From contig CM065801.1 of assembly GCA_033398695.1 (NCBI GenBank), positions 108,648,670 to 108,712,669 of the forward strand: 64,000 nucleotides of DNA, given 5' to 3'. Positions 1,525 through 50,425 of the stretch are shown here, one piece after another. Every line of letters begins with the position of its first letter. Positions within the stretch are counted from its first letter, which is position 1. The notes beneath the pieces are model-generated. The model had not been told where the DNA came from and searched no databases. It saw nothing but the letters and a program-made list of their open reading frames with translations. The stretch comes from Orobanche coerulescens. Its lineage: Eukaryota > Streptophyta > Magnoliopsida > Lamiales > Orobanchaceae. The position numbers and the translations under genes were made by a program.

Positions 1525-2945
1525 CCAACCAACAAACTCAACGGTTCAACGAAACCTCGATCATATACATAAAACCAAATAATCCAACTCAACAAGTACG
1601 AACTCATATCCACAATACAAGCCGTAACTCGATGATCACAAATAACAATCAATTACCGATCAACAAACACAACGGTTCTACAATATCCTGATTAAATACA
1701 AATCCAAACAACCCAAACCAATCAAACACGAACTCAAAACCACAATACGATTCCACAATCCGAAGATCATATCAATAATCAATTTAACCAAGTGCCTAAG
1801 CATTACCGATTCCACATTCAATCTTAAATACGATTACAAGTTTCCTCCTTGTACATTCATAATATAAGCCAATTACCGATTATCATCACCAATCCGGACG
1901 ATCCGATTAATTCAACATTATAGATAACCATATTCCAAAGGTTTCAAATAATTCCATTATCCGAATTGAACACTTGTTCAATACGTATAAATTCTCAAAC
2001 TCAAAAGTGAATCATAATCTTATCAAATCCGTAACCATATTCGTATTCCTATACGAATATTGTATCAAAACACACAACTTAGTTTTAGATATGAATATTC
2101 CATATTCATATCCAAAACACCAACATCACTTAAACATGTTCATCATTTCATATAATCCAAGAATTCCTTAAGAACACAACTTATTCCGACATCACATTCA
2201 AAATCTCCAATGCGACATAATACGATGTGTTCTAACATCTAAACAATCCTTATTCACAATTCAAGGTGTATATAATCATGTTCTTCAACATATATACTTC
2301 TCATAACATCATGAATTGCAACAAACCACCAAGAACATCGAGAATACTATGATTCCATAATCATAACAACATAATCAAGGCATTTGATCATCAATTCATT
2401 ATCTTCCCTTAACAAAATTCTCGTAAATACCAAGAATCATCACAACAATATCAATTCAACCATCATTCATACGAAAATTTGTAGAATTTTCCAAGTTCTA
2501 CTCATTGAGACATTTCATCGAACACTTTGAAGGCATAGTCCAATTCAATCAATTATTCAAAGAAAAACTCGAATTCGTTCCACAAAACTTCAAGAGTATT
2601 GAATGATTACGAGCTTACAATCAAGTTCAATCAACAATCTGAATCAAAACGAAGCAAATCGGCCAAAACACCAAGAAACCTCAAGAACATCCAAAAACCA
2701 AAAGCTTAGGTGTTCTTACCTTCGATCCGGGTGGAAGATGATGTTAATCCATGATTCCAACTTCAAAAACATGTTGCCATTAGATGTTCTTACTCAAATC
2801 CATCCATTTTGCTGAAGAAATCGCGAAGAAATGAAGAGAAAACATGAAAATGGCCGGATGACTCAGACCAGGCCCTTAAATAGGCGGGACCTGTCGGACC
2901 ATTACGGCCGATATCGGCCAGGGCTTACGGCCGTAACCGGCCATG

Positions 2946-4049
2946 TGTCACACCCCGAGAGAAATGACCGACAGAGTGCTCGGACAGACCCGCACATAGG
3001 GGTGCGAGGTCCAGCGGATCAACGTGCACGGGGCACGTTCGGGACTGCAAGGCCGTGTGGAGCGGCACAACCGACTGAGGGACTTAGCCGTGTGGTGCGG
3101 CATGCGTGGATGTATGGCCGAACAAGCAGGCCATCCGGGCAACAAAGTGCCCAACCGAGGAACAAGGCCATTAGGCCAGATGTGGGACAACCTGGGCGGC
3201 GGGACAAGGCACGCTGGGAACCAAACGGACGAGTGCAGCGGACAGGCACGCCACTTTGGGACAACGCGGGACAAGATGACGAGATGAGGCACATCCGAGG
3301 GCCGAGACTCGGACACGGGCGAAGGACACCCGCGAGGGGTGCGCGCGAGGCGCTGGGCGTGCGCGAAGGCGGCGCGCGAGGGACACACGGAGCTCCCCCT
3401 ATAATAGGCTTAGCGGGATAAAGCCTTGTGAGTGCACTGGACACTAGAAAGCTGAGGAGTCCACTGTGCGGAAGTTGTACTCGGAACATTCCAAAAATGG
3501 ACAGGGATGGTCCAGAACATCAAAGATTAATTCGGAGGCATGTTTGGAAGGCCGGGACGGATCAGGTCGGATTACGTGGAGACGGGCCGAGTCGGGCCGA
3601 GCGGGCCGGGTCGGGCCGAGCAAGCTAGAAAGGTCCAGAAACATGTGGAAAGTGCTGGAGACTCTTGGATGAGTCAAGAGACTTGTAACTTAGTAGATGT
3701 TTCTATATATTGTGTAAAAACATTGTAATTAGAATACTCTAGAACATGTAATAGTGTAGGAGGATCTAGAAGCCTCCAAATGAGGAGGTGGAGGAAAGTT
3801 CTAGTGATAGAAGGTAGTATAAATAGAGAAGTTGGGGCTCATTTGCAGCCATCCTTGGGAAAGCATTGTAAGAGACACTTTGTAAACTCTTTGTAACTTA
3901 GTGGAAGAAAACTTTCCAATAACTCATTGCCTCTCTTTCGTTGTGCCAACTTTATACTTAACCAATTTCGGAGGGATTAAGACTGACTAGCAAGAGGGTT
4001 GCTAGGTCGCGCGATGCTTAGGAGCATAACAAACTCTAAGCCCGTGACA
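2946..4049 (+). repeat. Element A 5' LTR
   Basis: The TGTCAC...GTGACA LTR is 1104 bp long. A TATA-like tataaata lies at 3818-3825. Upstream of it, 3540-3625 is rich in GGGCCG repeats, and the next kilobase upstream is GC-rich and gives long spurious open frames on both strands. The LTR shares the segment around ctataataggcttag with element B, suggesting common ancestry. Confidence 0.88.
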
Positions 4050-4051
4050 AG

Positions 4052-4064
4052 TGGTATCGGAGCC
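4052..4064 (+). promoter_or_regulatory. Primer-binding site of element A
   Basis: TGGTATCGGAGCC starts 2 bp after the 5' LTR. It resembles the TGGTATCAGAGC complement of plant initiator tRNA-Met with one change, the usual primer site of plant LTR retrotransposons. Confidence 0.85.
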
Positions 4065-4128
4065 ATCGTTAGCCACACAAGGAGGTGTGCAAGACTGTTG
4101 GAGTCGACGCTAACGATCAGCAGGCATC

Positions 4129-7195: not shown

Positions 7196-7286
7196 CATGG
7201 CTACCTCACTGCCCGATTCGTCCGGCACCCTTACGGCCGTAACCGGCCATGGCTTACGTACGTAACCGGCCGTGGCCTACCCTACT

Positions 7287-11760: not shown

Positions 11761-11769
11761 CTACTGCTT

Positions 11770-12310
11770 AGTTTGGTCGACACCCTTACGTACGTAAACG
11801 GCAGCTGGCTTACGTATGTAACTGGCCCTTACGGCCGTAACCGACCACAGCCTTACGTACGTTATCGGCCAGTCCTTGCCCTCAGCGAGTCACTGCCGAC
11901 CGCAATCGGCCACCCATGCGAGTCACTGCCGACCATTCTCAGCCATCCCTGCGAGTCACTGCCGACAATGCTCGGCCACTACAGGTCCTCTCGGCCACGA
12001 CTCGGCCAGCCGCCCCGTAGCGTACGTAACACTTAATCTGTTGCGTACGTAATACATACATTGACTTGATACAGTATTATACTCGTATTACGTATGTAAT
12101 ACACCCTGTATAGCGTATGTAAATCCATCCGTTGACTCACCTGTCCACATCCACGCCGAAAGCCGCCGACCACGGGCCCCACTATACGATCACAACTCGG
12201 TCCTGTCTGATTCCTTTTGTTACGTACGTAATGCCTTATGCATAACATTCGTAAAGCGTATAATTTAGCGTACGTTATCTCAACATCTTAACGTACGTTA
12301 AGGGCTCTAT
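11770..12310 (-). repeat. Palindrome cluster in the element C LTR
   Basis: More than ten copies of TTACGTACGTAA and close variants (TTACGTATGTAA, TTACGGCCGTAA, TTAACGTACGTTAA) occur here, mixed with a tandem gcgagtcactgccgac unit at 11885-11965. Together with copies at 2885-2945 and 7240-7275 they form one array, now split by elements A and B. On the coding (minus) strand the array lies just upstream of the TATA-like site at 2875-2883. Confidence 0.8.
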
Positions 12311-12992: not shown

Positions 12993-15900
12993 TGTAACAC
13001 CCCCAAAACCATCCGGGATATTACAGCACCGTGGGGCCCGCGCCGGAACCCACTAGGCTAAAAACCGTTTACAAAACCATTTAAAAATGCCAAAAGGCCA
13101 ATGACGGTAATATTTTAAATACTCAAATATCTTCAAAAACATAGTTCTCAAATACCGTCATAAAATACCATTTGAAAATACAAGGCGAAATGCCAAATCT
13201 CGACAGTTCAAAATGTACGTTAAGCCACCCCTTAAACGTATCGATAAAATAGTTAGGATAAAGAGTTTAACGAAATAACCCAAGTTTGCAAAGTGCCAAA
13301 AGGCCATTTTAAAATACACACATGCAGCAGATAAAAATACCGAAAAGCCATTTGAAAACACACTCACAGCGGATAAAATCACAGTTCAAAAATACACATT
13401 TGCAGCGGAAATAAAACAACCAGAAATAAATACTCAATTACGAGCCACATCCAGTATCACCCGGGAAGCTCACCCCTTCACGACCGCTACTAGCTCGATC
13501 TCCGAGTACCTAAAAATAAAGCCCACGACGGGGTCAACCACACTACTCAACAATGATATCGATCACATCATCATAAATAATTACATACCAATGTAATAAC
13601 GAAGTAAGAATACTACCGATGTAATCTTACCGTTATAACCTTACCAATCCACAACAGATCAATCCTTAACATATTCCACGTTCCGCATTCTCAATTGACG
13701 AAATGAACTCAACAACAATTATCTGTACTGTATTCCAAAAATACCAAGAATTCTCAAAACATCATCATAACTCATAAGTGTGGAAATAATCCAATCTGTG
13801 CCAACTCCTGTCCATAGGATTACACAATCAAATCTCAACATGTATAAACCAATAATACACAACATATCTGTAGATCAACTACCACATGATAATGATAACA
13901 AATCCCGAACATCGACGTACAGTCCGAATGCTCATACGATCAATAACAATGGTCAACCAATACATCACTGAGAATATCATCGACATGATAACTCCAATAT
14001 GACCAACAAAGGATCAACGATAACCGAGAATACCATCAACATGATAACTCCGACACGGTCAACAAAGGATCAACATTAACTGAGAATACCATCAACATGA
14101 TAACTCCGACACGATCAACAAAGGATCAACAATAACTGAGAATACCATCAACAAGGTAGACTCCAAATGATCAACAATAATAGATCTCAAAGAAATAACC
14201 TCGACTGTCGAAACATACCCCCCGGGTGTATGAACAACTAGTCGTAAACCATCGAACATATCCAATCATACATGGAATTATGAACAACTAAACGGTATGG
14301 ATCAAAGATGGACGTCATAGTATGCCCGATCCGAATATGTGTCAGTGCACATGTCCGCCCCGTATACGGAATCCAGGATATATGTGGGACAATGTACCTA
14401 ATTAGCCTCAACGAACTACGTCTCGTGTGCACAGCCCTTCACGAAAAATATTCACACATGACTATATATGTGCCCGGCTAAAAATCCTACACAATATCCA
14501 ATCGGAACGCGGATATGACTCCAGATATGTCACGATGCAACATGACAATGAAACTCAAAGAAACACATATCCAATAAGGATCAAAAGACTCACCGAAGTG
14601 AACAACAACAGACTGACAATGAAAAGTCGACACGACCAATCAATATTCAAAACAATAATCCTGGGATCACAAACCCCAAATGATAATCCATACGATCAAC
14701 AATCTCAGACAACGGTTCTAGGATCAACATCCCTCATTGCGACGATCAACACAACCATTAATACCAACAATAGTCCTGGGATCAACATCTCTCAACGAAC
14801 AATCAATACGAATCTCAGTATACAAAGCCTCAACGTACAACATATACAACAACTCAACATAATAATTATCTCATAACTGAACAATACATAAATTGCCTCA
14901 AAGCCGAAGACAACATCCTTTCCACGAACAACATCCCTAAACGAATACACAGTTATACAAATAATCTCAAATAACATACCATCCATTCAATACCAATAAA
15001 CCTTTATCCCCATACTTATATCATCACCCTGTATAACGTACGTAAATCCATCCGTTGACTCACCTGTCCACATCCGTGCCGAAAGCCACCGACCACGGGC
15101 CCCACTATCCCATCACAACTCGGTCCTGTCTGATTCCTCTTGTTATGTACGTAATGCCTTATGCATAACATACGTAAAGCATATAATTTAGCGTACGTTA
15201 TCTCAACATCTTAACGTACGTTAAGGGCTCTATACTTAGCCAAAATTCAACTGTTCCTGTCCGACGTCTCTGTAACATCCCCAATCCGCTTAGGGATAAT
15301 ACACGCCGTAGAACCTTTCGTCAAGGTTCTACCAGGCTGGTAACAACAAACGAACAACTCAACAACGCCTTTAAGGCTAAAAAGACTCAGTAGACCGATT
15401 TGGACTTTCAATAAAAACATACAACTCGATTACAATACTTGCCCATGCAGGGGTCAAAATACAACAAACTCCCGTATAATGGGGAAAAATACTGCAGTGG
15501 AAAATAAAGTACAACTGAACCAATACACAAAGTACGGTTCCACATGTGATTAGTATCGATCATCTTTCATCATCCTTCATGCCGACCCTGTGCCACGCTC
15601 CCTGAAACCTGAATGCAATACAGACATCCACCCCCGATTACTCGGGGGTTAGCAAAATTCCACTATTTTGCTAGTGCAAGTACAAGTGCAAATACGAGCC
15701 ATATAATTCAAGTTCCAAAGATAACAATAATCAGGAATTCTCAAAGATTCAAATACAACGAAACGAATACTTCCCGAGGCAAGAGTTTGAGTAAAACTTT
15801 CCAAATCCAAAAGATCACAAATAACGAGAAAGGTTTGTAAAATGGTTTAAAATACCCTCGGGAGTTTTAATAGAAACCAACTTAGGATTATCAAATCCTT

Positions 15901-23651: not shown

Positions 23652-26020
23652 TGTAACACCCCGAGATATTCGGAATAATTACAGCGCCGTAAACCCTTTA
23701 GATAAGGATTTACAAGGCTAATTGTAAAAGAAGTGTAGAAATAATCCAATCGAACAACTGAAATTCAAATACAGATTTGATTCAACCGATCAAATGAGTG
23801 AACTTATACAACCATATCGAAATGACCTTATTAAAACAGACGTACTCGAGTACTAAACGAACCAAGAAGACAAATCACAATAACAATAACATCAACCACA
23901 TCACTGAGCCATTTCATCGTCCTGTCTGTACTGTGGTTGCCTCCCCGCTCCTCGGCTACCTGAACATCAAAACAATGTCCACCCCCGAAGGGGTTAGCAA
24001 AACAATGCTAGTACAAGTATCATCATACAATAAATCATCAATGCATCATAAAACATGCAAAACGGACTTCCGCCACCGGAATCCAACGATGCGAATCCTC
24101 ACGATTCCATCAACACAATACAGGGTAATCCAGCGATCCAGCGCCCTTGGTATAGATCCCCATGATGATCCCGTCGGACCAACGCATGGTGGAAAACCCG
24201 TCTAACGATCCAAAGACCCTCGATAGATCCCCATGATGATCCCGTCGGACCAACGCATGGTGGACATTCGATCCAGCGCCCTCAGCATAGATCCTCATGA
24301 TCCCCTCGGATCATTTATACCATAAATCAATCAACTATGCATATACATATGCATTTCAACATGTTCATCAATACGAACAGATATCAACGAATATCACGAG
24401 AATTTTCAGAAATACATTTCATATTCAACAATATGAACAAAACCACAAGCATGATCAAAGTTTCAATATAAATCGAACTCGACATATGATACTTGCCTTG
24501 AAAATGGCAAGGATGAAACACCTCGATGATCTCAACACACTCGAAGGCCGCCTCCTTCGATCAACGTAACAAGCCCGAACCTTAACAAAAGGAATGATAT
24601 ACAAATCATCTCAAGTCGAACGATGGCCTAACAATTCGGTCTACGGCCGAAAAGCTTAAAATAAACAATCTGCCTGGACTGCTTAGCGTGCGCTACGTAC
24701 TCTACGTAACGAGCGCTAAGCCGGCCTGTTAGCGTACGCTATCGTGTAAGACTAGCGTGCGCTATCTACGAACTGACAGTTTGAATCGGCTGATACATAA
24801 CGTACGCTACGTACGTTTTGTGCGCTAACTGAACCCTGATAGCGCACGTTAACTAACACATGTTAGCGTGCGCTAATCTTGCATGGCAGAATACTGCTAA
24901 CGGAAAAACTGGGTTGAAAGGTGGCGAATTTCATGAACTCTATGGTGATAATACAAATTACCCTCGGGCATAACATGCTAATAAGGTTTGTGGAAGTTCT
25001 ATGATTATGAGGTACAAATATACGGATAATCATCTCAACATCATAATTTATCTTCGATCTTCAAGAAATATTCCAAGTTCCGATTATTCCAAGTCTCAAA
25101 ACATATGATTCCTTACGTAAAACATACGAACTAGGTAATCTTCATATACTGGTCGATTGGTTTTGAAGATACATAACATGCTTAGGAGTCCACATACAAA
25201 AAGGTTCAATGGATTATACGATGAATAAGTGTCGAAACGTCGAAAATATCCTTCTAACACATGATGTATGACTAATAACGAATCTAACTGACTAGACGAA
25301 CATGATCAACATCCTTTAGAACACAACTAGTATTGGTGAAGAATCACCTACCTCAAGATAGTGAAGAACACGGAGGAAATTGAAGCAATCCAACACCGAA
25401 AGCTTGAACACCAATCTCCAATGATATACGATCTTCAATGACGAACCAGGATGTTGATATGAAGTGTTTAGGATGAAGGAAGTTATGTTCTAAGTGTAAG
25501 AATTCGGGTAATGGGAGAAGAAAGAACTGAAATCACGAATAGGATGCTGTCCTATTTATAAGAAATGGCTATTAGCGCGCGCTAGACCCTGCTCGTAGCG
25601 TGCGCTAACGGCTCACTGACTTAACTATACTCAGCACTTAGCGTGCGCTACGCATATACCTGTAGCGTGCGCTAAGGCATTGACTCAGCTTTTCCCGAAA
25701 GCCGTCCAGGTACATCCCGACACGATCCGACAGGGGTCCCCCGGCCAGATCTCACCTACCGCACGTCTCAATCAAATTGACCACGCATAGCGTGCGCTAA
25801 TGACACTCTGTAGCGTGCGCTATGAATCCACGTTAGCGCACGCTAAACATAGCCGATAGCGTACACTACATGCGCAGGATTACAATCTATAAATCATAAA
25901 CACGAATTTATACGCTCGACAACATCGGATCATGAAATATGGAGAATAGTACTCAGACAAAAGTACAATCATTACAATATCACAAGTTCCAATTACATAA
26001 CAGAAATCTCGGGTATTACA
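23652..26020 (-). repeat. Chromovirus I 3' LTR
   Basis: The LTR ends at 26020; the adjoining tccttcctccctaaaaag (26021-26038) is the complement of the polypurine tract. TAGCGTGCGCTA-type palindromes form two clusters, 24685-24880 and 25570-25870. A minus-strand TATAAATA lies at 25553-25560, directly downstream of the second cluster in the sense of transcription. Confidence 0.92.
25553..25870 (-). promoter_or_regulatory. Predicted LTR promoter: palindrome array next to a TATA box
   Basis: On the minus strand about eight copies of TAGCGTGCGCTA or a near variant (TAGCGCGCGCTA, TTAGCGCACGCTAA, TAGCGTACACTA) run up to TATAAATAGGA at 25550-25560. Spacing is irregular. The same arrangement is in the other LTR at 32826-33140. 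Placement suggests enhancer or protein-binding sites; this has not been shown. Confidence 0.65.
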
Positions 26021-26055
26021 TCCTTCCTCCCTAAAAAGAAGTTTCGTCCCGAAAC

Positions 26056-26730: not shown

Positions 26731-26751
26731 GTGAACTTCCCAATCAGTTGA

Positions 26752-27963: not shown

Positions 27964-28068
27964 GAATCCATCGGTTCCTCTGGCGCTAATATAGGTCTTG
28001 TTGTCGGTCTCCTCTTAAGTTCACAAAACCACTGGCACTTCTCATTCCACGTGAACTTTTGAGTTTTC

Positions 28069-29166
28069 TCAGAATAAATGAGTGAGCGGACGAGCAATTT
28101 TGGAAAATCCCTCTACAAAGCGGCGATAATATCCAGCAAGTCCTAAGAAGCTTCGGACTTCTTTCACGTTTTTAGGAGCTTCCCAATCCAAGATTGCTTC
28201 GACTTTCTTCGGGTCCACCTGAACTCCGTCGGCTGATATCACATGCCCAAGGAAGGTTACTTCCTTAAGCCATAACTCGCATTTTGAAAATTTTGCATAC
28301 AGTTGTTCCTTCCTCAAGGTGCTCAAAACCACACGTAAATGTTCAGCATGTTCTTCTGCGTCCCTCGAATATATCAGGATGTCGTCAATGAAGACGACCA
28401 CAAATTTATCCAAGTATTTCAAGAATACCCGATTCATCAATTGCATGAATACCGCAGGAGCATTGGTAAGTCCAAATGGCATTACTACGAATTCATAATG
28501 CCCGTACCGGGATCTGAAGGCAGATTTCGGTATATCCGATTCCTTAATTCTCAACTGGTGGTATCCTGATCGCAAGTCAATCTTCGAGAATACCCTTGCC
28601 CCTTGCAGTTGATCAAACAAGTCGTCGATCCGAGGTATAGGATACTTATTCTTGATTGTCATCTTGTTGAGCTCCCTGTAATCAATACACAGTCGGAGGG
28701 ATCCGTCTTTCTTCTGGACAAAGAGAACGGGCGCTCCCCAAGGAGAAACACTAGGTTGGATATAGCCCTTATGTAACAATTCCTCCAGTTGCTTCTTGAG
28801 TTCATACATCTCGGTTGGCGCCATGCGGTATGGTGCTATGGAAATAGGAGCTGCTCCAGGCTCTAATTCGATAGTGAATTCCACTCCCCTCTGCGGAGGT
28901 AACCCAGGTAGTTCGTCAGGAAATACATCTGAGAACTCATTCACAACTGAAATAGACGAGAGCTCTACTCCTTCCTCTTTCCTCATGGCATAGCACCAAA
29001 GTCCGTGACATACATGATTCAGTAATTTCACGGCTTTCATTGCATTGATCAATTTTCCCGAGCTTCGGTCTCCATCCTCGGAATAAGTGCTCAGATCCGT
29101 CATCGGCAATGATGGAAATGACTCTCTCGGTAATTGTAATGACTCCATAACGGTTGAGCCAATCAT
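28069..29166 (-). CDS. Reverse transcriptase segment (chromovirus I)
   Basis: Open for 365 codons; the true homology starts after the frameshift near 29055. It contains [16 protein letters not shown], the fingers motif [18 protein letters not shown], the palm motif [11 protein letters not shown] and the catalytic FIDDILIYS, where two aspartates bind the metal ions. The connection motif [11 protein letters not shown] and [11 protein letters not shown] follow. It would copy retrotransposon RNA into DNA in cytoplasmic particles. It ends in a premature stop after RPLTHLF caused by an indel. Confidence 0.92.
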
Positions 29167-30181
29167 CTCCGAGAATTAAATCGTCACCGTAGATGTCAAC
29201 TATAATGAGATTCGATGGCCACTCTCTTCCTTCTATAGATACTGGGAAATCCCTAGCTTCTAGGGTTCCCACAATTTTCTCTCCGCTCGGTAATCCCACA
29301 ACATACGGTTCACAATTATACAAGCACGATATTTTCAAACGATTAACACAGTTCAAAGATATAAAAGAATGCGTAGCTCCCGAATCGAATAAGACACTAA
29401 CTGGTTGCAAAAGGATCTGAATCGTACCTGATGCAACAGCTGTGTTCTGATCATCAGATTTCCTCATTTCATACAGGCACGGAGGAACGGACCCAGCACT
29501 GGATGTCTCTCTCTTCACAACGTTCTGCTGCTGAAATCCACTCTGCTGCGTCTGGTTCACACTCGTATCCTTCGGAACTGGAGCTGGAGTGCGAGTACCA
29601 AAAGATCGGGTCGCATTCCCACAAAATGTTGCGCGATGTCCTTCCTGTCCACACTCGAAACAGGTCACAGCAGGCGCGAAACAATCACGTCGAACATGTC
29701 CCGCTTTGCCACAGTTGTAACACTTCTTCCCTGCGTCTGAAACAGTTGGTGCTGCCCGGAACTTCTTTCCACCTCGAGAAGGATGCAGAGGTCTCCTGGA
29801 TGAATGAAAAGAGGACTGACCCCTGCGAGGTCCGCTACTCTTATCCTCCGTGAAGTTGCCAGACACCTTCTGTTTCTTTGCTTCCGTCGCCTTCTCTACT
29901 GCTGCCTCCTTCATATCATAGGCCAACGCCTTGTCCTGATACTGTCGCAAGGTGGTACATTCAAATCCGGACATATACTGCTTAATTTCCGGCTTTATTC
30001 GCATGTCAAAATGAAAAATCTTCTCTGCCTCGGTCCTGACCAAGTGGCGTACATAAGTCAGCTGGTGATTAAAAGTCTTAATCACGTCCGTCACAGATAC
30101 TTCCGAATTTTGTGGTGAGAAAAACTCCCGAACTCGGGCTTCTCTAACTGGACGAGGACAATACTGCGCCTCCATCATCAA
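28937..30181 (-). CDS. Gag C-terminal part with two zinc knuckles, and protease (chromovirus I)
   Basis: This open segment of 414 codons starts in the retrotransposon gag domain ([15 protein letters not shown], capsid-like). It continues through two CCHC zinc knuckles, [14 protein letters not shown] and [14 protein letters not shown] (about residues 160-200), and reaches the aspartic protease with active site [10 protein letters not shown] and the later LGDDWL part. The last 40 or so codons are read in the wrong frame after the indel near 29055. It would package RNA and cleave the polyprotein. Confidence 0.88.
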
Positions 30182-30904
30182 TTTGAATTCCGTCCAGTCA
30201 ACATTGTGCTCCTCCGGTCGAATGGCCTCCCATCAGTCGAAAGCCTCCCCGGTCAAAAGATACTGGGCGACCGGAACCTTCCTATCGTTGGGACAGTTAA
30301 TCCCCGCAAAAATCTTCTCTAATTCCTTCAGCCAGTGATCCCAAGAAAGCGTCTCAGCAGAACCATCAAATTTCGGAGGGTGCAATTTAATCACTTCGGT
30401 AAGCCATCTATCTCCTCGATTTTCCACGTTATCTTTCTTTGTCCCATCGCCGTCTGCATGCGATCCACAACTTGAGCAAACTGGTTTATCTGGGCAACCA
30501 CCTGCTGAAGCACTCCCGGCACGTTAGGATCTGCATTATTATTTGACGATCCCTGCTGTCCCCCGGAATGGGAATTCGTTCGACTAGCGGTTATCTCTGG
30601 GGTAGATACCGACTCTTCTTGCCTCGCATTTCCACGTCCACGTCCACGACCGCGTCCTCGTCCACGACCTCCTCTCAACATACTGTAAACATAAATACTC
30701 AATATCCAGGACAAACTTTCTCAAAGTACATCCATCAATGTTTACAAGACATAAATTAAATAAAAACGGTAGTATTCGAGATTAGGAAACTTATAACCAC
30801 GGTCCACACGACGATGCTGGCTCAGCAGTGATGTTACGAACGACCAATAATCAAATAACGTAAACAGACCCAACTAACCCGACTGCCAAGATATCCATGA
30901 ATCT

Positions 30905-30919
30905 TAGCTCCGATACCAT
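30905..30919 (-). promoter_or_regulatory. Primer-binding site of chromovirus I
   Basis: On the minus strand TGGTATCGGAGCTAA follows the 5' LTR after five bases, an initiator tRNA-Met-type site. Confidence 0.85.
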
Positions 30920-30923
30920 ATTC

Positions 30924-33293
30924 TGTAACACCCCGAGATATTCGGAATAATTACAGCGCCGTAAACCCTTTAGATAAGGATTTACAAGGCTAATTGTAAA
31001 AGAAGTGTAGAAATAATCCAATCGAACAACTGAAATTCAAATACAGATTTGATTCAACCGATCAAATGAGTTAACATATACAACCATATCGAAATGACCT
31101 TATTAAAACAGACGTACTCGAGTACTAAACGAACCAAGAAGACAAATCACAATAACAATAACATCAACCACATCACTGAGCCATTTCATCGTCATGTCGG
31201 TACTGTGGTTGCCTCCCCGCTCCTCGGCTACCTGAACATCAAAACAATGTCCACCCCCGAAGGGGTTAGCAAAACAATGCTAGTACAAGTATCATCATAC
31301 AATAAATCATCAATGCATCATAAAACATGCAAAATGGACTTCCGCCACCGGAATCCAACGATGCGAATCCTCACGATTCCATCAACACAATACAGGGTAA
31401 TCCAGCGATCCAGCGCCCTTGGTATAGATCCCCATGATGATCCCGTCGGACCAACGCATGGTGGAAAACCCGTCCAACGATCCTGCGCCCTCAGCATAGA
31501 TCCCCATGATGATCCCGTAGGACCAACGCATGGTGGACATTCGATCCAGCGCCCTCAGCATAGATCCTCATGATCCCCTCGGATCATTTATACCATAAAT
31601 CAATCAACTATGCATACACAATTGCATTTCAACATGTTCATCAATACGAACAAATATCAACGAATATCACGAGAATTTTCAGAAATACATTTCATATTCA
31701 ACAATATGAACAAAACCACAAGCATGATCAAAGTTTCAATATAAATCGAACTCGACATATGATACTTGCCTCGAAAATGGCAAGGACGAAACACCTCGAT
31801 GATCTCAACACACTCGAAGGCCCCCTCCTTCGATCAACGTAACAAGCCCGAACCTTAACAAAAGGAATGATATACAAATCATCTCAAGTCGAACGATGGC
31901 CTAACAATTCGGTCTACGGCCGAAAAGCTTAAAATAAACAATCTGCCTGGACTGCTTAGCGTGCGCTACGTACTCTACGTAACGTGCACTAAGCCGGCCT
32001 GTTAGCGTACGCTATCGTGTAAGACTAGCGTGCGCTAGCTATGAACTGACAATTTGAATCGGCTGATACATAACGTACGCTACGTACGTTTTGTGTGCTA
32101 ACTGAACCCCGATAGCGCACGTTAACTCACCCATGTTAGCGTGCGCTAATCTTGCATGGCAGAATACTGTTAACGGAAAAACTGGGTTGAAAGGTGGTGA
32201 ATTTCATGAACTCTATGGTGATAATACAAATTACCCTCAGGCATAACATGCTAATAAGGTTTTTGGAAGTTCTATGATTATGAGGTACAAATATACGGAT
32301 AATCATCTCAACATCATAATTTATCTTCGATCTTCAAGAAATATTCCAAGTTCCGATTATTCCAAGTCCCAAAACATATGATTCCTTACGTAAAACATAC
32401 GAACTAGGTAATCTTCATATACTGGTCGATTGGTTTTGAAGATACATAACATGCTTAGGAATCCACATACAAAAAGGTTCAATGGATTATACGAAGAATA
32501 AGTGTCGAAACGTCGAAAATATCCTTCTAACACATGATGGACGACTAATAACGAATCTAACTGACTAGACGAACATAATCAACATCCTTTAGAACACAAC
32601 TAGTATTGGTGAAGAATCACCTACCTCAAGGTAGTGAAGAACACGGAGGAAATTGAAGCAATCCAACACCGAAAGCTTGAACACCAATCTCCAATGATAT
32701 ACGATCTTCAATCACGAACCAGGATGTTGATATAAAGTGTTTAGGATGAAGGAAGTTATGTTCTAAGTGTAAGAATTCGGGTAATGGGAGAAGAAAGAAC
32801 TGAAATCACGAATAGGATGCTGTCCTATTTATAAGAAATGGCTATTAGCGCGCGCTAGACCCTGCTCGTAGCGTGCGCTAACGGCTCACTGACTTAACTG
32901 TACTCAGCACTTAGCGTGCGCTATGCATATATCTGTAGCGTGCGCTAAGGCGTTGACTCGGCTTTTCCCGAAAGCCGTCCAGGTATATCCCGACACGATC
33001 CGACAGAGGTCCCCCGGCCAGATCTCACCTACCGCACGTCTCAATCAAATTGACCACGCATAGCGTGCGCTAATGACACTCTGTAGCGTGCGCTATGAAT
33101 CCACGTTAGCGCACGCTAAACATAGCCGATAGCGTACACTACATGCGCAGGATTACAATCTATAAATCATAAACACGAATTTATACGCTCGACAACATCG
33201 GATCATGAAATACGGAGAATAGTACTCAGACAAAAGTACAATCATTACAATATCACAAGTTCCAATTACATAACAGAAATCTCGGGTATTACA
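30924..33293 (-). repeat. Chromovirus I 5' LTR
   Basis: The 2370-bp LTR nearly matches the 3' LTR. Palindrome clusters lie at about 31955-32150 and 32840-33140, and TATAAATA (minus) at 32826-33833 minus 1000, that is 32826-32833. By the TATA position the U3 part is about 460 bp and the transcribed R-U5 part about 1.9 kb. Confidence 0.92.
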
Positions 33294-35048: not shown

Positions 35049-35072
35049 TAGGCCATCTATGGCGTAGTGAAT

Positions 35073-35734: not shown

Positions 35735-38481
35735 TGTAATATCCGCAATTTTCGATTTCCGGTAATTATTTTTTTTTCGGCGGAAGTCTGTTTTGACGAC
35801 TCGCTCATGTCCGTTTCGTCATTCTGAGAATAATTAATTCTACACTTTTTGACATCCGAGTTCGTTTCGGTGTCGTTTCGTTGAGTTCTGTGCTTTTTAG
35901 CGACTTTTCCGCACTTGAGTTCGATTCTTGCGAATCTCGTCAAAGCTGTTGTTTCGAGTTTCCCGCAAGTCCGTTTAACTTTGTTATACGTGTTGTGAGC
36001 TTCGGTTTGATTATTCGTTGTCGTATGGTGATTTTCGGGCAGTTGGGCCATTTTCGTAATTTCCCAAAGTTTGGGGTAATTACCTTCCGTTGTCGAATTT
36101 CGAGCCTTCGGGTGGTCGGAATCGTGTGTTCTACTAGCTCTTAGATTCGTCTTTGTGAGTACTTCGTAACCGTATCTTCGGTTCGTATTCAGGCTCGGGT
36201 TTCGGTGTCGTTTTGTTGAATTCAGGATTACTAAACGACTTTTCTAAGTATGAGTTCGTCTTTGTTAGATCACCATTAATTTTTGGTGATTCCAAAAATT
36301 ATAAATCTTTGCAATATTATAGAATATCGAGTTAGCTTTCCAATGGTTCAAACGGTGAGTCAATCGGAGTCCGGACGAGAGAGTTATGGTCGTTTGATTT
36401 TGGCGAGCACTTCCGGGAGCCTTTCGGCCGATAGGGGGTCGATAGACTCTCGCCTACATTCGGTATGGCTATCGGTTGGGCCTATCGGCCGATAGGCGGC
36501 GATAGGTCTCTTTGTGTTACACTATAAATGTGTTGTTTCAGCGTAAATCGCTCATTCCTCCCCCTTCTTCAACCGTGAGCGAGAGAGAGAGTCTTGAGAG
36601 GGAGAGTTCCTCCATCTATCACTTACTTGTGTAGATTTCTTCATCCCTTTTCGATCGGGTGGCTCGGATTGCGGATCTAACCCATGGTTTTTGGATTTGA
36701 ATGCTTGATTCATCAAGAGGTAAGAATTCCTTTAACCCTACCTTTTGGATAATTGGGGATTTTGGGGTTTTGTCCGATTCTTTCCGTTTTGTTGATGAAT
36801 TCTTGATGAATATGATTAATCTTGTTAGTATCTTTAGTTTTCCTACGGAATCGAGAGGGTTTGGTTGTGGTCCGCCCTCGTTGTTGTTTTCGGTATGAAT
36901 ATACATGAATCGTAGGCGGGGTTCCGGGTGTATTCCATTTCCATAATCGTTTAGAAATGGTTGTGATTGTGCTATTCGAATCGTTAGGTTCATTTTCGTC
37001 GGTTCCTCACGGTCGTGCTTGATTCTTCCGTTCCGTTCATTGTCGTCTTCCTTTTCGTTAGCATCGGGCGTTCCGAAGCTTCCCGGTTGAGCCGTATCCG
37101 TTCGTGGTTCCGTGCTCGTGGTATCGAGGCAAGTACCTTGTCCATACTATTCTTGTTTTGTGAATATGATAATTGGTGATCGTCTTTATGTGGTTGTTTG
37201 ATTGTTTGAAATGAGTTTTCAAAAGATTCGGTTTAGCCTTGTTAAAGGCTTGCTTTCAAAACGCGTGTGTTTTGTAAATGGTGTGGTTTGAGAATGACTA
37301 TGTGAACTCTATGGATATGTTTGGTGTTGATGTTGCACTTGGTATTGCGTGTGGGCGCATATTATTTCATTTCGGTGCGTTGTGGTTTGACGTGGTGTTT
37401 TGCTAAGTGTTTGATGCCTCTTGCGAATTGTTTGAATATCCTTGATGTAATATGTTATTTGTGTGAATGTGTGGATATGGTTGAAGGTCTACGGTGACAC
37501 ATGGCACGTGATCATGTGGTCAGGATGCAACAAGTGATTGATCCAACCGTGAGAGCCTGAGATAATCTACGGTGGCACATGGCATGCGATCATGTGGCCA
37601 GGATGCAACAAGCGATTGATCCAACCGTGAGATGTATGTGATTTGTTTCGCTAGCTTGACTCGGGAGGGTCCTTCGAGGCCTCGAGTGGGATGTCGGTGG
37701 TATCGTCCGGTCTGGCGATGCGCGTGCGTGATTATGTTTCGTTGATTTTACGTCCGTTGAGGACACGTGATGTTGGGCTTTGACCTGTAAATTGTTGGTG
37801 ATTTCCTATTTGCGAAAACAAGCGTTTGATGTGACCCTATCGATCTTTTGGAAAGAAGGATTTTATAATCCTAAATTGTTTTCTATTAAAACTCTCGATG
37901 GCATTTTAAACTGTTTTGTAAATAGTTACCCTTATTTGCGATCTTTCGGTTTTGGAAATGTTTACCCAAACTCTTGCCTCGGGAAGTACTTTTATTTACG
38001 TTTGGATCTTTGAGGACTCCTGATTATTATTGTTCTTGGAACTGGTATTGTATGGCTCGTATTTTTGCACTTGTACTTGCACTAGCAAAACAGTGGAGTT
38101 TTGCTAACCCCAGTATTCGGGGGTGGATGTCTATTTTGCATTCGGGTTTTGGAGCATAGCACGAGTCGGCACGAAGGATGATGAAAGATGAACGATACTA
38201 ATCACACGAGGTTCCGTTGATGTCGTATTGGTCGATTGTATTTTCTTTTCCATTGCGGTATCTTTTCCCCGTTGTACGGGAGTTTATTTTATTTTGACCC
38301 CTGCGTGGGTATGTGTTTGGGAATGAGTTGTATGTTATTATTGAAAGACCAAGTCGGTCTACTGAGTCATTTTAGCCTTAAAGGCGATGTTTAGATGTTT
38401 GATTTTAGTTATCAGCCTGGTAGATCCTCGAGGAGAGGGTCTACGGCGTGTAATATCCCTGAGTGGATTGGGGGTGTTACA
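35735..38481 (+). mobile_element. Element G: solo LTR inside the element F gag gene
   Basis: The 2747-bp LTR starts TGTAATATCC and ends GGGTGTTACA, with exact duplication gtaca (35730-35734, 38482-38486). It is the same family as E but on the opposite strand, and complete. On the plus strand a TATA-like TATAAAT is at 36523-36529, preceded by CCTATCGGCCGATAGG-like palindromes at 36425-36510. No internal region is present. It split the gag gene of F. Confidence 0.92.
36425..36529 (+). promoter_or_regulatory. Predicted promoter of LTR G with CTATCGGCCGATAG palindromes
   Basis: Copies of TCGGCCGATAG and GGCTATCGG or CGATAGG occur at least five times within 90 bp and end about 12 bp before CTATAAATG. 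In LTR E, same family, this place holds TTACGTACGTAA repeats instead. Promoter role is inferred from position. Confidence 0.6.
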
Positions 38482-39363: not shown

Positions 39364-40321
39364 TGTTGTTGCCCGAAATATTATCTGAAGATAGATATTG
39401 TTGGAATGGTCGAGAAACAGCAAATTGCGAGAGCACATCCGTGGGGGTGTGAATAACACAAGATTTGTCGGGTTTGTTAGGCCCGGGCTTGAATGCTCTC
39501 GCGAGATTTTATTAAAAATATTCGGGGATACAAGTATTAATGTAAGAATCTAATTACAATGAGTGTAAAAGATCCTATTATCTATCTCTTGAGCGAAGCT
39601 TTGCCTGGTTCGTCTCTGCCGACCGTCTTTCGTGTAAGAGGTGCTGAGAGAGAAGAAAGGCCGAGAGATAGATGTAGCCAAGAGTAAGAAAGCCAAGTTA
39701 TGAGTTGAGCTTGTTCTGAAGTAGAGAGAGACAGAGAGTTCCGAGTTTGAGAGTTTTCCATGTGCAGGCAGCCTTCTATTTATAGGAGCTGAGATGCTCT
39801 ATTTACTGGCGGGCGATCGCCCTTTTATGTAATATAATAAGGGGAGATCGTCTTTATGTCACATGGGTTGTCTGCCTTTAAGCCTGCGGCTGCTGCTGGT
39901 AGCCAGCTGTGCGGTCCAATGAGGAGCCGGCACGCGTCCTGAGTCGCTGCCATGGGCGGTCCCATTGTACAACTTTCAGCGGGTCTGTCGGTTGGTGAGA
40001 AGATGCTGACAGGCTGTGGTCAACGATCCATGTGCTGCGGCGCCTTTTCCGGATCTGCATGTGGGACTCTGTCCCGATCTTAGGCCTTTGCCGACTGGAC
40101 GATCGATGGCTTCATGTGGCATGAGGCGGTCGTCATTTGGTCGGTCACCAGGGGTCCATCGCCAAGTACCGAGAGACGATCGCCTTAGATGTCGATCGCT
40201 GAGCACCGGGACTTGTCCTCGGATCTTCGGTCGGCCAATCTGCCTTGGCTGCTGGGCTCTGGCTCGGTCGCCCGGTCTCTGAGGCGATCGCCTGTTGAGA
40301 CGTATAAATATCGACACAACA
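39364..40321 (-). repeat. Element F 5' LTR
   Basis: The 958-bp copy of 16640-17595 has scattered substitutions, including small changes in the GGCGATCG motifs. It is bordered on the right by the atatc duplication. Confidence 0.87.
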
Positions 40322-40674
40322 ATATCCATAGAATTCACATAGTCATTCACAAACCACACCATTCACAAAACACACGCGTTTTGAAAGCAAGCCTTTAACA
40401 AGGCTAAACCGAATCTTTTGAAACTTAAATTCAAACGACCAAACAACCACATTTAGACGATCAATAATTATTGTATCCATAAAACAAGAATTATATGGAC
40501 AATCTGACCTGATTCGCTCGATCAAAGGATGTTATAGGATGGATGATTGATGATATGATCTCCACGATTTCATGGGTTGATTGTCCAACAACATCTCTCC
40601 ATGATAACCACACCTCCAGCCGCGTAAGAGAAAGAAAAGAATGAGAAAAATGGTGAAAAACCCGTCCGCAGGGC

Positions 40675-40860
40675 CTTAAATAGGCTGCCTGCCAGCAGAG
40701 TTACGTACGTAACCGGCAAAGGGCTTACGTACGTAACTGGCCATGGCCGAACTCGCTGCCCAGAAATGCCGGCAGCGTTTCGTACGTAACCGGCCATGGC
40801 TTACGCATGTAACTGGCTTTACGTATGTAACTGTCGGGCCCTTCCGGCCGTAACTCGGCC
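40675..40860 (-). promoter_or_regulatory. Predicted promoter of LTR E with TTACGTACGTAA palindromes
   Basis: Seven copies of TTACGTACGTAAC or variants (TACGCATGTAA, TACGTATGTAA, TCCGGCCGTAA) run up to CTATTTAAG at 40675-40683 on the minus strand. The motif is shared with LTR C but not with LTR G, though E and G are otherwise one family. Confidence 0.6.
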
Positions 40861-41669
40861 AGGGCTGGCCTGGCCCCAACATGCCCGGCCATGACTCTGC
40901 CGGGGCGAACTCCGACGGGCCGGACGACCCCGAAACCCGAACCTGAGTACGAAACGAAGATATGGTTACGAAGTACTCGCAAAGACGAATTCGAGCACTA
41001 AGAGAACACATGATTTCGACCACCCGAAGGCTCGAAATTCGACAACGGAAAGTAATTACCCCAAACTTTGGGAAATTACGAAAATGGCCCAAAACGTCCG
41101 AAATACATGATACACGATCGAAACACCAAGCCAAAGCTTGCAACATGAATAATAACATTAAATGAACTTACGAGAAACTCGAAACAACAGTTTCGGACGA
41201 GATTCGCAAGAATCGAACTCAAGTGGGGAAAAACCGCTTAAGAACACAGAACTCAACAAAACGATACCGAAACGAACTCGGATGACAAAAAGTGCAGAAT
41301 TAAATACTCTCGAAATGGCGAAACGATCATGAGCGAGTCATTAAAATGGGCTCCCGCCGAAAAAAAAGAAAATCACCGAAATCCGAAATTGCGGGTATTA
41401 CAGTCTCGACGTACAAAATACAAACATACGGCATACTGAATACACATACTGAATGCAAAAATATTCTCATACGGTATACCTGATATCCAAATCAGTTCAA
41501 CCTGATACAACTTATCCTGAATATATCTGTCAATCAAAAACGATAATCACACCAGTACAACTGTCCCGGTTCTCAATTTATTTTATCCATACTGTATAGA
41601 TACCTAACTATACAGTATATCTCAGATAAAATAACGCGAAAAATTTATACTGAAAATCTGGGTATTACA

Positions 41670-44400: not shown

Positions 44401-44449
44401 CAAAATCAGTTTGTACAAGATTGATATTTAGCTTTTCTCTATTCAAATC

Positions 44450-44903: not shown

Positions 44904-44934
<31 letters not shown>

Positions 44935-45864: not shown

Positions 45865-45882
45865 TCCCCGGCAACGGCGCCA
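45865..45882 (-). promoter_or_regulatory. Primer-binding site of element M
   Basis: Minus-strand TGGCGCCGTTGCCGGGGA begins 6 bp from the LTR, a primer site typical of Athila and related elements (aspartate tRNA type). Confidence 0.85.
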
Positions 45883-45888
45883 AAAACT

Positions 45889-47186: not shown

Positions 47187-48154
47187 GTTGAGGAAGATGA
47201 TGATATGATGATATGTATATATATATATATATACACACACACATCTTGAATTATGTTGTTTTGTTATGAACATGATTATGGAATCATGGTGTTCTTGATG
47301 TTCTTGGTACATATCACATCATAGAGGAATAGGTTATAAGATATTAGAACTAATATTATGTTAATTATAGTGGTTGATTTCGTATGTTCTTGATAAGATA
47401 TGGACCATGATGATGAGATTGAATTTGGAAAGGTTATGATTGCTCTTGGAGTCTGATTTCCTTTACATTCATATTTGTAATCGCCACGTGTTGGTCGGTA
47501 CCTGTAATGCATGCAACTGCATGTCATTAGCGCACGCTAAATTACTAGCTAACGCACGCTAACTGGTGACTATTAGCACACGCTACGTTATGTGATTAAT
47601 GTGCGCTAAGTAGACAGACAGTTTAGTATATCGTGCTTGTAATATCTGACTGTAATTCTTCATCCTTACTATTGTATTGTTCAAATAATTTGAATATCGT
47701 TGAATCATGTTGCATTTAATATATGACTACAATGTCGATATGTTACGGAATTGAGTTAGTTCTCGTTGTTATACACTTTATGTTTGTTGGTTCAATGTTA
47801 ATTGGAGAGTTGCATTTTTGGACCTATTCTGTTGGTGTAGCGTACGCTACATAGTTTGATTAACGTGCGTTAAGCTTGTGCCTATCTGTTGCATACGTTA
47901 AGAGGGAGTCAAACATTAGTTGACTTCTGCACGTGAATCTGTTATCCGTTGCCATGCACGTGAAGGTTGATAGGGTTGTCATGTCGGTCAGAGTCAACCA
48001 TATTTAGCGTACGTAATACCATTTTTGTAGCGTACGTAAATAGCCTGTGAAATCGAGATAGTAGCCCCTGTAAGTCGATTACGTACATAAAACCAACCAG
48101 TTAGCGTACGTAACTGGTGTTAACGTACTCTAAATCGTTCGATAGCGTACGTTA
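47187..48154 (+). mobile_element. LTR-like fragment L with TAGCGCACGCTA palindromes
   Basis: This 968-bp stretch between elements M and J has no gene. It contains a TA/CA microsatellite (47213-47244) and, from 47526 to 48154, many palindromes of two types: TTAGCGCACGCTAA-like (47526-47610, 47838-47880) and TAGCGTACGTAA-like (48004-48150). It resembles a chromovirus LTR related to I in inverse orientation, but both ends are missing. Confidence 0.55.
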
Positions 48155-50425
48155 TGTAACACCCCAAACTAGGCGGATATTACAGTGCCGTGGACCCCCG
48201 ACTGGGACCCACCAGGCGAATGAAAACTGATGAATTAAATAATATAATTGTAGTACTGAACCACATTATATTACCAAATACTCCGATGAGGAGCTTAAGT
48301 ACAATACACCAGGACAATATAGAATACTAGTATATTTTATTTGAAGATAAAATACACCACCCTGAATAAATAAACATCTCAAACGGAATTTGCAGCGGAA
48401 TTACAAATGAAGAGAAATAAGGATGACTGAAACGACTGGGGCCCCCTACTAGTATCACTGGGACTCCTCGCCGTCAACATGCTCTTCCCGTGCCTTTGCC
48501 TTACCGTGACCTGAAAACAATATCCCCTAACGGGGTCAGTTACACAAAAGAACAATCCTCAAGGGTTGAAAATACACAATCATGATATATCTTAAGTTAT
48601 GAAATATCCTTAGTTATGAATTACGCTGAAGAGGAGTATCATAGTACGCCCGTAATGTTCTGTGCAAGTGTACAAGACGAATGACCGGACACACCCATCC
48701 TTGTACCTAATTAGTCTCACGGAGGTAATCGTTACCGTGTGCACAGTCCAATGTATCGATCCCAATACATGACCATCGCGTGCTTGACTAAAAATTCCAC
48801 ACATCCGCACCCGGACACGCAATATGAACCCAGAAGGTCATATGAACGAGAATGACCATAATGAATATCAATGAATAATAATTCGACAAAGTCAAGAATG
48901 ACTCACCGAGATGAAAATAATAGTGAAGTGATTGATAACTCAATGAAATGATTGGAACCGTCGTTCCTCGTGAATGAAGTGATTATTCCACAATTACAAG
49001 TCTTAAAACGATTAATATAATGATGAATGAGTTATGATTATGAATGAACAACAACAAGAGGAATGAATATCCTTTTAACCGAGTAAGAATTAACTTACAC
49101 AACACCGGTGAACAGTGTCCTTCCACGAACAAACATCCTAAAAGAAATGTCGGTCGCTCGAACAACCTTGAATAACATAATTACCAACAATCCGTTCAAC
49201 ATACTAATCGAATACGAATATAACGAACTCAAAACGTCGATACGACTAAACCAAGTTCATTGGGGCATTAAATCAAACACGTTGTAACCAACCTTCGATT
49301 GTTTACAATCAATCCTCAATTATACCAACATCAAATCCCAAAGAAGTGGTTCAAACCAACAAAACATCTTCAATACGATCAATAATCCAAAATGAATATC
49401 CAAATTCGTGATTACAACAACGATTAATCGAAAACCCCCAAATCCAACTCAATATTCAAAGTGTTCTTGGATAATCCTTCAATAATCCATTGAATAATCA
49501 TACATATCCATAATCATGCGTACATCACTTCATACAACATGATTTTAACGTCCAAAACATCATATCTCAATACAAAATCGAAATCCAAGATGTTGAAGAA
49601 ATTACCTCTTGAAGATCCAACCACTTCGATCCGATGAACACGAGTTAAATCGAGTATCTAAGCTTCCCAAACGAATGAAAATGATGAAAATCTAACACTC
49701 AAGTTATTGATGATGGAAAATTCCTCCCACAAACCCTCTCTCTTGGAAGTAGGATGAAGAAATGTTGAAAAATGAGGAAATCCCGTCGGTCCACCTATAT
49801 AAAGCCCAAGGACGCACGACTAATCCGCACGACCAAGCGTCCGTGCGTCCGGTCGTGCGTGAGGTTCCTGTCGGCTGCTAATTTTAGCACACGAGCAGCA
49901 AGTCGTGCGGCCTGCTCGTGCGGCCCTGACTCGAACGGTGGGCCTCCTGCCCAGTACAGCCGCACACACGAGCACCACGCCCGAGCAGTTGCTCGTGTGG
50001 CTTGCTCGTGCGGAAAGGACTCGACCACTGGGCCTCCTGCCCAGTCCAGCCGCAACACACGAGCGCCGCGCATGACCAGATGCTCGTGCGGCCTGCTCGT
50101 GCGGCAAGGACTCGACCATTGGGCCTCCTGCCCAGTCCAGCCGCAACACACGAGCGCTGCGCACGACTAGATGCCCGTACGGCCTGCTCGTGCGGCCCTG
50201 CTCGACAAGCAGTTCAGCCAATAATGATGCACCGAGTACAAAAATCACAGAATTCGAGAAGTACGGGGAAAAAAGCACGAGAATTAAAAATATTACGCCG
50301 AACGGTGAACACAATTGAATGAGTATGAATGATGAATGATCATTAATGACTGAAAATTACTGAGTGACAATTACTGACTGAATATTTACTGAATAAAAAT
50401 GACTGAATTACAATCGGGTATTACA
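48155..50425 (-). repeat. Chromovirus J 3' LTR
   Basis: The 2271-bp LTR starts TGTAACACCCC and ends GGGTATTACA on the plus strand and is followed by polypurine-tract complement (tactccccccctac) and pol sequence, so J reads on the minus strand. The middle part (about 48625-48800) clearly resembles the LTR of C. A minus-strand CTTTATATAG lies at 49795-49804, next to a GC-rich tandem array at 49810-50205. Confidence 0.85.
49795..50205 (-). promoter_or_regulatory. Predicted promoter of LTR J with CGTGCGG/TGCTCGTG tandem array
   Basis: Three longer units of about 68-78 bp (each with gctcgtgcgg, ctgctcgtgcgg, gactcgacca, gggcctcctgcccagt, cagccgca, cacgagc) occupy 49895-50190, preceded by shorter CGTGCGT repeats. 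The array ends at the TATA-like CTTTATATAG. Position matches the palindrome arrays in C, E, G and I. Open frames on both strands here are produced by the repeats. Confidence 0.6.

Follow-up and report, generated by a model that had tools for sequence, protein, structure and literature searches.

Long terminal repeats (LTRs) of nested retrotransposons in the stretch of plant DNA analysed here (contig CM065801.1; 64,000 nucleotides, hereafter the window) carry arrays of a 12-bp palindromic site, or dyad, and neighbouring dyads lie mostly at a distance of 22–24 bp, often of exactly 23 bp. This spacing rule was overlooked in an earlier reading of the window (the sequence-only reading). The arrays are probably proximal-promoter platforms, located in the unique 3' region (U3) of LTRs of Del/Tekay-like Ty3/gypsy chromoviruses and used by a putative dimeric DNA-binding protein. 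Elements and fragments are designated by capital letters, and coordinates are window positions.

Dyads in the LTR arrays

The arrays of C, E, I and, weakly, G have a common form, TWDCG-N2-CGHWA, which has 55 exact matches in the window. The form was derived from these same sequences, and its enrichment is descriptive. Its variants are TTACGnnCGTAA in C and E, TAGCGnnCGCTA in I and TATCGnnCGATA in G. All motifs quoted by the sequence-only reading, including that of K, were found where it had placed them. It had regarded the motif as specific to each family, which is true of the C/E, I and G variants but not throughout: the C distal array and the cluster at 47.5–48.2 kb (L) have common forms such as TAGCGTACGTAA, and mixed half-sites also occur in I, for example TAACGTACGCTA. 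Likewise, of the five LTRs that it had described as holding a dense array, C, E and I do so, G is weak, and J has a tandem repeat instead. The arrays are listed below; unless stated otherwise, dyads have at most one mismatch.

2902..2936, minus strand: C proximal array, part a; a pair of dyads at a distance of 23 bp; first base of the minus-strand TATTTAA box at 2882
7231..7265, minus strand: C proximal array, part b; the dyads TTACGGCCGTAA and TTACGTACGTAA, at a distance of 23 bp
11786..11864, minus strand: C proximal array, part c; four dyads, one of them mismatched, at distances of 24, 19 and 24 bp
12018..12300, minus strand: C distal array; eight dyads, 5 of 7 distances 22–24 bp, spacers at chance similarity
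15034..15223, minus strand: copy of the C distal array in the 5' LTR; the remaining array region is missing in this copy
25573..25868, minus strand: proximal array of the I 3' LTR; eight dyads, 5 of 7 distances 22–24 bp; TATAAAT starts at 25560
32846..33141, minus strand: proximal array of the I 5' LTR, a copy of 25573..25868
24684..24875, minus strand: second cluster of the I 3' LTR, about 0.7–0.9 kb downstream of the TATA box; eight dyads, 5 of 7 distances 22–24 bp
31957..32148, minus strand: second cluster of the I 5' LTR, a copy of 24684..24875
40701..40853, minus strand: E LTR array; six dyads, 3 of 5 distances 22–24 bp; TATTTAA starts at 40682; array and TATA box alignable with C
36422..36507, plus strand: G array; two dyads (TTTCGGCCGATA, TATCGGCCGATA) amid six CTATCG/CGATAG hexamers; TATAAAT located at 36523; a weak array in its dyad count
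47528..48154, strand not assigned: L fragment; 14 dyads in clusters; the J LTR end abuts at 48155; no TATA box assigned
49810..50205, minus strand: J LTR array; a 91-bp tandem repeat (3.2 units) with many CGTGCGG/TGCTCGTG motifs; TWDCG dyads absent; first base of TATATAG at 49801

Dyads with at most one mismatch were counted in each stretch and compared with 300 shuffles of that stretch. The L fragment had 14 versus 0.92 in shuffles (maximum 5), the I proximal array 8 versus 0.44 (maximum 3), the I second cluster 8 versus 0.76 (maximum 6), the C distal array 8 versus 0.61 (maximum 4) and the E array 6 versus 0.25 (maximum 2). Parts a, b and c of the C proximal array had 2, 2 and 4 versus 0.05 (maximum 1), 0.09 (maximum 2) and 0.14 (maximum 2). 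In G the count of 2 versus 0.10 was also reached by shuffles (maximum 2), and J had none. Thus, G and the two short C parts are weak taken singly, and J is not of the dyad kind. The J array did hold 19 CG-N2-CG against 5.3 in shuffles, a count inflated by tandem repetition, and in the G array 6 of the window's 26 CTATCG/CGATAG hexamers fall within 77 bp.

The claim that the arrays exceed chance was borne out. Perfect palindromes of at least 12 bp with at least two CpGs numbered 25 in the window, while 30 first-order Markov sequences gave 2.2 on average and never more than 6. Of the 25, 17 fall in arrays, including 3 in second LTR copies, and the other 8 do not. The 3111 bp of arrays, a figure that counts second LTR copies, hold 36 perfect NNNCG-NN-CGNNN dyads, and the remaining window holds four. 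The share of CG starts followed by CG after two bases was 58/213 in nine array stretches (with J and second LTR copies included) and 159/2411 elsewhere. Gaps of 0, 1, 3, 5, 6 and 7 bases between CGs had no comparable excess, while gaps of 4 and 8 were raised two- to threefold.

In a symmetric tabulation of 54 dyads, information was 0.57–1.86 bits per column inside the 12 bp and did not exceed 0.18 bits in the first eleven columns to either side. Flanking column twelve, with 0.26 bits, is the position of the last base of a neighbour dyad 23 bp away.

Spacing of neighbouring dyads

In nine stretches, 28 of the 45 distances between neighbouring dyads were 22–24 bp, compared with a mean of 5.3 and a maximum of 12 in 5000 random runs, and 20 were exactly 23 bp (random mean 3.1, maximum 9). 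The remaining distances comprised four of 18–19 bp and 13 of other values. With exact dyads only, and with I and C each represented by one LTR copy, 39 of the 55 dyads remained; among these, all 17 pairs lying 12–40 bp apart were 22–24 bp apart, 12 of them exactly 23 bp. A pattern of two dyads with an 11-bp gap occurred 17 times in the window, some of these in second LTR copies, and never in 100 shuffles of the window.

Spacing was also evaluated per locus, for six loci; G, with its single distance of 61 bp, was left out. Random placement reached the observed spacing count in 4 of 4000 runs for the C proximal array, 36 for E, 2 for the I second cluster and none for the C distal array, the I proximal array and L.

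The spacers between dyads were compared with shuffled letters. Their similarity was at chance level in the C distal array (0.30 versus 0.33), the I proximal array (0.34 versus 0.32) and the I second cluster (0.31 versus 0.31). The values were 0.48 versus 0.41 ± 0.07 in E and 0.50 versus 0.39 ± 0.11 in part c of the C proximal array.

Position relative to the TATA box

The centre of the nearest dyad lies 25.5 bp upstream of the first base of the putative TATA box in C, 24.5 bp in E, 18.5 bp in I and 34.5 bp in G; J is without a dyad. The sequence-only reading had put the arrays at the same promoter-proximal place in several LTRs. This is upheld for the five LTRs C, E, I, G and J. Dyad clusters also lie elsewhere, namely the C distal array and two clusters that the sequence-only reading had missed, the second one of I and that of L. 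The second I cluster may represent a leader element or an additional promoter.

When CpG islands were called with a simple 200-bp criterion, they covered part c of the C proximal array and the proximal arrays of E, G, I and J, and part a of C had none. These LTRs contain further islands, as do D, K, F1 and F2. The Sirevirus pattern calls for at least eight palindromes per element, with a CpG island, upstream of the TATA box; by this measure I has 8 (proximal) and C has 16 (proximal and distal), while E with 6 and G with 2 are below the mark of eight and J and K have none.

Apparent exchange of a promoter module

Local alignments were made module by module, with 100 shuffles each; the C array was represented by two of its three pieces, parts a and c. 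In the upstream U3, E–G (z = 69.5), G–K (65.8) and E–K (57.3) stand out against the other 12 pairs, all of which are at most 3.5. In the array with its TATA box, E instead aligned with the two C parts (z = 15.1 and 14.1), which aligned mutually at 8.3; here E–G was 0.4 and G with part a of C 2.4, and no other pair exceeded 1.3. Downstream of the TATA box the values were 16.5 for G–J, 9.3 for G–C, 3.5 for E–C, 2.4 for E–G and at most 2.2 for the rest. Further downstream, E and G match again, with 88% identity over 197 bp.

These scores agree with the earlier observation that E and G align along their backbone and differ in motif, while E and C have a like motif on different backbones. They also support, in the one clear case of E, the proposal that the module was exchanged or rewritten. 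The alignments thus support a relationship of the E promoter module to that of C, on an upstream backbone of the G/K type: one apparent clear exchange, with divergence in the other LTRs. Since the array pieces of the neighbours E and C are about 70–80% identical, the relationship is not due to a recent conversion between them. The E mosaic may stem from template switching, from gene conversion, or from common descent with loss in G.

The K fragment contains GTCGGAAGTGC/GCACTTCCGAC inverted repeats in three copies (51203-51244). The plus strand of the window has just two occurrences of GCACTTCCG, one within K and one bordering the G array on its upstream side (36407-36415), and G and K may therefore have an older motif in common.

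Interpretation and alternatives

We favour a transcription-factor target as the reading of the arrays, because information is nearly confined to a symmetric 12-bp site and because the distances persist across spacers that vary in sequence. A symmetric site, fixed distances and free spacers are the trace that would be expected from a protein dimer with neighbour contacts. Each dyad would be bound by one homodimer of a sequence-specific host protein. With constant spacing, adjacent dimers would touch and bind cooperatively, and the bound dimers would recruit transcription. The half-site letters (TTACG, TAGCG, TATCG) may have been altered between families through substitution, slippage or recombination between elements, presumably for the use of another paralogue or the evasion of silencing. 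A host protein is preferred over an element-encoded factor because, among frames of at least 150 amino acids, I has no sense frame beyond gag-pol. Among candidate readers of the dyad we considered factors of the NAC, SBP/SPL, bZIP and BZR types; presumably none fits every variant, and none is claimed. In a bolder version, the chromovirus LTR promoters of one plant would use a spacing code: CG-N2-CG dyads would recur at intervals of about 23 bp as far as the TATA box, and a single family of dimeric proteins that bind cooperatively would read them. Positions would be conserved and half-sites rewritten or swapped, making the promoter an exchangeable cassette in a protein–DNA arms race. We regard this version as doubtful, if possible.

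Several points weigh against the platform reading. The dyad enrichment is partly circular, the form having been read off the same sequences, although spacing is not part of the form. TATA boxes were chosen by eye, and the dyad clusters away from them, namely the second I cluster, the C distal array (12018-12300) and L, make promoter proximity less than the whole rule. G has only two dyads, 61 bp apart, J has none, and K has none in its present fragment. The six loci tested for spacing may have ancestry in common and so would not be six independent events. The spacers of L are slightly alike (0.39 versus 0.35 ± 0.03). Part b of the C proximal array and the E array have one identical spacer word, CCGGCCATGGC; plain tandem duplication therefore contributed there. 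Finally, dyads are not clearly spared in LTR pairs. The two I LTRs differ at 3 of 192 positions within dyads, 13 of 320 in spacers and 36 of 1866 elsewhere; for the C pair the counts are 7 of 71 within dyads and 7 of 150 in spacers. The contrast between dyads and spacers runs in opposite directions in the two elements (Fisher p = 0.19 for I and 0.15 for C). These data fit selection on active copies only, through which any constraint would act, yet give no support by themselves.

The arrays could instead act as RNA. The U3 at the 3' end of the element RNA would then fold through its palindromes and be cut to small RNAs as a silencing target, as has been proposed for maize Sirevirus palindromes, whose clusters are described as small-RNA hotspots (PMC5311732, PMC10760457). 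Folding was indeed better than in dinucleotide shuffles for the second I cluster (z = −5.9), G (−4.1), E (−4.0), the I proximal array (−4.0), part a of the C proximal array (−3.1), J (−2.9) and L (−2.2). We nevertheless hold this account to be unlikely. Folding was near the shuffles in parts b (−0.2) and c (−0.8) of the C proximal array, in the C distal array (−1.4) and in its copy C5 (−1.0), though dyads and spacing are present in them. Very stable 110-nt windows (below −40 kcal/mol; 229 of 6390) also fall in many stretches without dyads, fixed spacing is not needed for folding, and maize Ty3/RLG elements generally have no obvious peak of such structures in the account of PMC10760457. An RNA hairpin was accordingly rejected as a constant feature of the arrays. 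Small-RNA targeting is possible as a consequence.

Slippage in a GC-rich part of the LTR may have duplicated a unit of about 23 bp and left minisatellites without function, an origin that seems to us quite improbable. The spacer word common to E and part b of the C proximal array and the plain tandem repeat of J are in its favour. Moreover, the form alone can arise by tandem repetition: a three-dyad pattern was found in 26 stretches of prokaryote genome contigs, all of which (26/26) have spacers alike at 7 or more of 11 positions and look like ordinary tandem repeats. The same pattern had no match in viral contigs. Neutral decay of an old repeat would, however, remove dyads and spacers equally, whereas in the C distal array and both I clusters the spacers are as unlike as shuffled letters while the dyads stay symmetric.

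Very improbable, in our view, is that the arrays are sites for a protein encoded by the element itself, such as an anti-silencing factor like VANC of the VANDAL transposons. VANC targets are, as here, dense short motifs in non-coding DNA that differ among related elements (PMC5735166, PMC10398659), and an extra open reading frame resembling double-stranded RNA-binding proteins has been reported in active sunflower Tekay elements (PMC12844716). VANC targets nonetheless belong to DNA transposons, are bound by an element-encoded protein and consist of same-orientation nonamers (PMC5735166, PMC10398659); those of VANC21 are not CpG dyads (PMC5735166). In element I the sense frames of at least 150 amino acids are gag-pol, with none beyond it, shorter frames having been listed only, without a family search; the other elements are too truncated for judgement.

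The sequence-only reading had offered escape from small-RNA or methylation control as a possible role. Arrays that are methylated more heavily might betray this by CpG decay, but this sign was rejected: per CpG, there was no detectable excess in the I LTR (7/56 in arrays and 7/83 elsewhere; Fisher p = 0.57). The corresponding counts in C, 6/20 and 0/2, are too few for comparison.

Relation to known systems

One of the closest likenesses is to the repeated motif (RM) boxes of Sireviruses, which have the same architecture in another superfamily and are also short CpG-rich palindromes in many copies, element-specific in sequence, clustered in the upper LTR half and forming CpG islands (PMC2829016); the TATA box follows the island by 37 bp on average. 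They differ in their Ty1/copia host, the present elements being Ty3/gypsy chromoviruses, and in their core, which in all but one is CGG-CCG with a variable gap, whereas here it is CG-N2-CG with T/A ends and CGGCCG appears only in some variants. The account in PMC2829016 reports no fixed spacing between boxes and places extra boxes near the envelope gene. It calls RM Sirevirus-specific in comparison with 'classic' retrotransposons, and there too the function of RM is inferred. The palindrome-rich LTR cis region of maize Sireviruses is described as rapidly evolving (Bousios et al. 2016, as described in PMC5311732 and PMC10760457), with the difference that a small-RNA link is reported there.

Del (Tekay) LTRs have a CpG-rich 5' region variable in length and sequence, for which the authors suggest escape from host control (PMC4029996). 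Judged by LTR ends and length, these and the present elements are probably one lineage. The words palindrome and tandem are absent from the main text of that paper, which cites CpG-rich low-complexity regions just upstream of the TATA box for monocots. It gives no CpG islands for its cluster A, the holder of all its eudicot Del, and calls islands derived in monocots; the present window, if eudicot, is perhaps an exception to this pattern.

U3 turnover has a parallel outside the chromoviruses. Tnt1 belongs to the Ty1/copia superfamily. In Tnt1, Retrolyc1 and Retrosol, diversification of the regulatory part of U3 is faster than that of the RNase H part and separate from it ('modular'; PMC1838419); the word palindrome is absent from the main text of that paper. 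The lists of factor sites in plant LTRs given in PMC11656987 hold no palindrome.

Palindromic CpG boxes upstream of the TATA box (Sireviruses), a variable 5' CpG island (Del) and modular U3 turnover (Tnt1 relatives) are thus already known. For dyads in chromoviruses, for the way they are spaced and for the mosaic promoter, no precedent was found in the literature searched. Neither a 23-bp dyad spacing in plant LTRs nor a swap of array and TATA box between chromovirus LTRs was found in the open-access literature, outside which most subscription papers lie, and the literal motif strings matched seven papers there, none on retrotransposons as judged by titles and the starts of abstracts.

The arrays touch on the open question of how plant LTR retrotransposons retain a working promoter under host silencing. 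If the platform reading is true, palindromic promoter boxes recur in chromoviruses and are not a speciality of Sireviruses, and the variable CpG island of Del LTRs receives a defined content. The fixed-spacing grammar offers a concrete, testable probe, namely two dyads 23 bp apart as bait for a host protein, and motif type can be scored against backbone type across all genome copies.

Nested elements of the window

The window is plant DNA crowded with nested LTR retrotransposons, of which the following bear on the arrays.

23652..33293 (approximate), minus strand: element I; LTR pair 97.7% identical, near-duplication GTTCC/ATTCC
2885-2945, 7231-7265 and 11770-12310, minus strand: 3' LTR region of the C element, one LTR region split by nested F1 and F2
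about 2945-7195: F1, nested in the C proximal array; duplication CATG
about 7284-11760: F2, nested in the C proximal array; duplication CTACT
15271-41402: D/E element, inserted in the C 5' LTR, within U3 and immediately upstream of its distal dyad array; GTCTC at both outer ends
39364..41402, minus strand: E LTR; partner LTR portion 15271-17597
35735..38481, plus strand: G solo LTR; target-site duplication GTACA

Element I encodes gag, protease, reverse transcriptase, RNase H and integrase with a weak chromodomain, spread over several broken frames. Profile matches were obtained for gag, RVP_2, RVT_1, RNase H, the integrase zinc domain and SH3_Tf2-1; the chromodomain scored 21.7 bits against a Pfam cut-off of 25.1. 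The order gag, protease, reverse transcriptase, RNase H, integrase with a chromodomain, the mark of Del/Tekay chromoviruses, was thus found in I, the element covered by the domain test. Its reverse transcriptase frame precedes the integrase frames and its domains are of Ty3 type, which sets it apart from the Ty1/copia Sireviruses. Among the best 120 of 7988 scored relatives of its RNase H–integrase frame, the named plant sequences are about 50–63% identical over most of the query, Tanacetum first, and the best named ones are plant Ty3/gypsy-type proteins. In viral contigs, nine pattern matches to the I reverse transcriptase were obtained and none was confirmed. The 5' LTR of I is followed by TGGTATCGGAGC, which we take to resemble a tRNA-Met primer site, and a purine-rich tract precedes the 3' LTR.

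The LTRs of C, E, I and J start with TGTAATACCC, which agrees with the Del U3 att site TGTAACACCC at 9 of 10 positions and differs at conserved base 6. G starts with TGTAATATCC (8 of 10), and K reads GGTAATATCC. The LTR ends of I, G and J are GGGGTGTTACA, with the GGG at −8 to −10 of the unique 5' (U5) att type A; the end of the D/E element, GGGATGTTACA, agrees with that type only in part. With starts and ends close to the att sites reported for Del (PMC4029996), the elements look like Del/Tekay chromoviruses.

The division of the C array by insertions, asserted earlier, was confirmed as one LTR region parted by two nested elements. These have no dyad cluster, with no match in F1 and three scattered one-mismatch matches in F2. 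The F1 and F2 LTRs have TGTCAC ends and lengths of 1105 and 1399 bp. An insertion preference for palindromes was set aside as the cause of their landing in the C array, the preference described in PMC6911290 being weak overall and absent for Tekay.

The L fragment (47528-48154) has a weak likeness (37 bp at 92%) to the part of C that lies downstream of its TATA box. The K fragment is followed immediately, at 51245-51623, by dense ACAACGTT...AAGCGTTGT inverted or tandem units with periods of 32 bp and 94 bp, which look like a separate repeat. An A+T-rich tandem array with a 92–93-bp unit, partly self-complementary, occupies 21260-21972. A CACTA-type transposase fragment (Transposase_21) is present at 60750-61391 on the minus strand. 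Among the best 120 relatives of its frame, 31 bear organism names and 29 of these are eudicots, which perhaps points to a eudicot host, although relatives of transposons are weak evidence. A perfect 81-bp inverted repeat, with arms at 62527-62607 and 63328-63408 about 0.7 kb apart, possibly marks the ends of a small DNA transposon.

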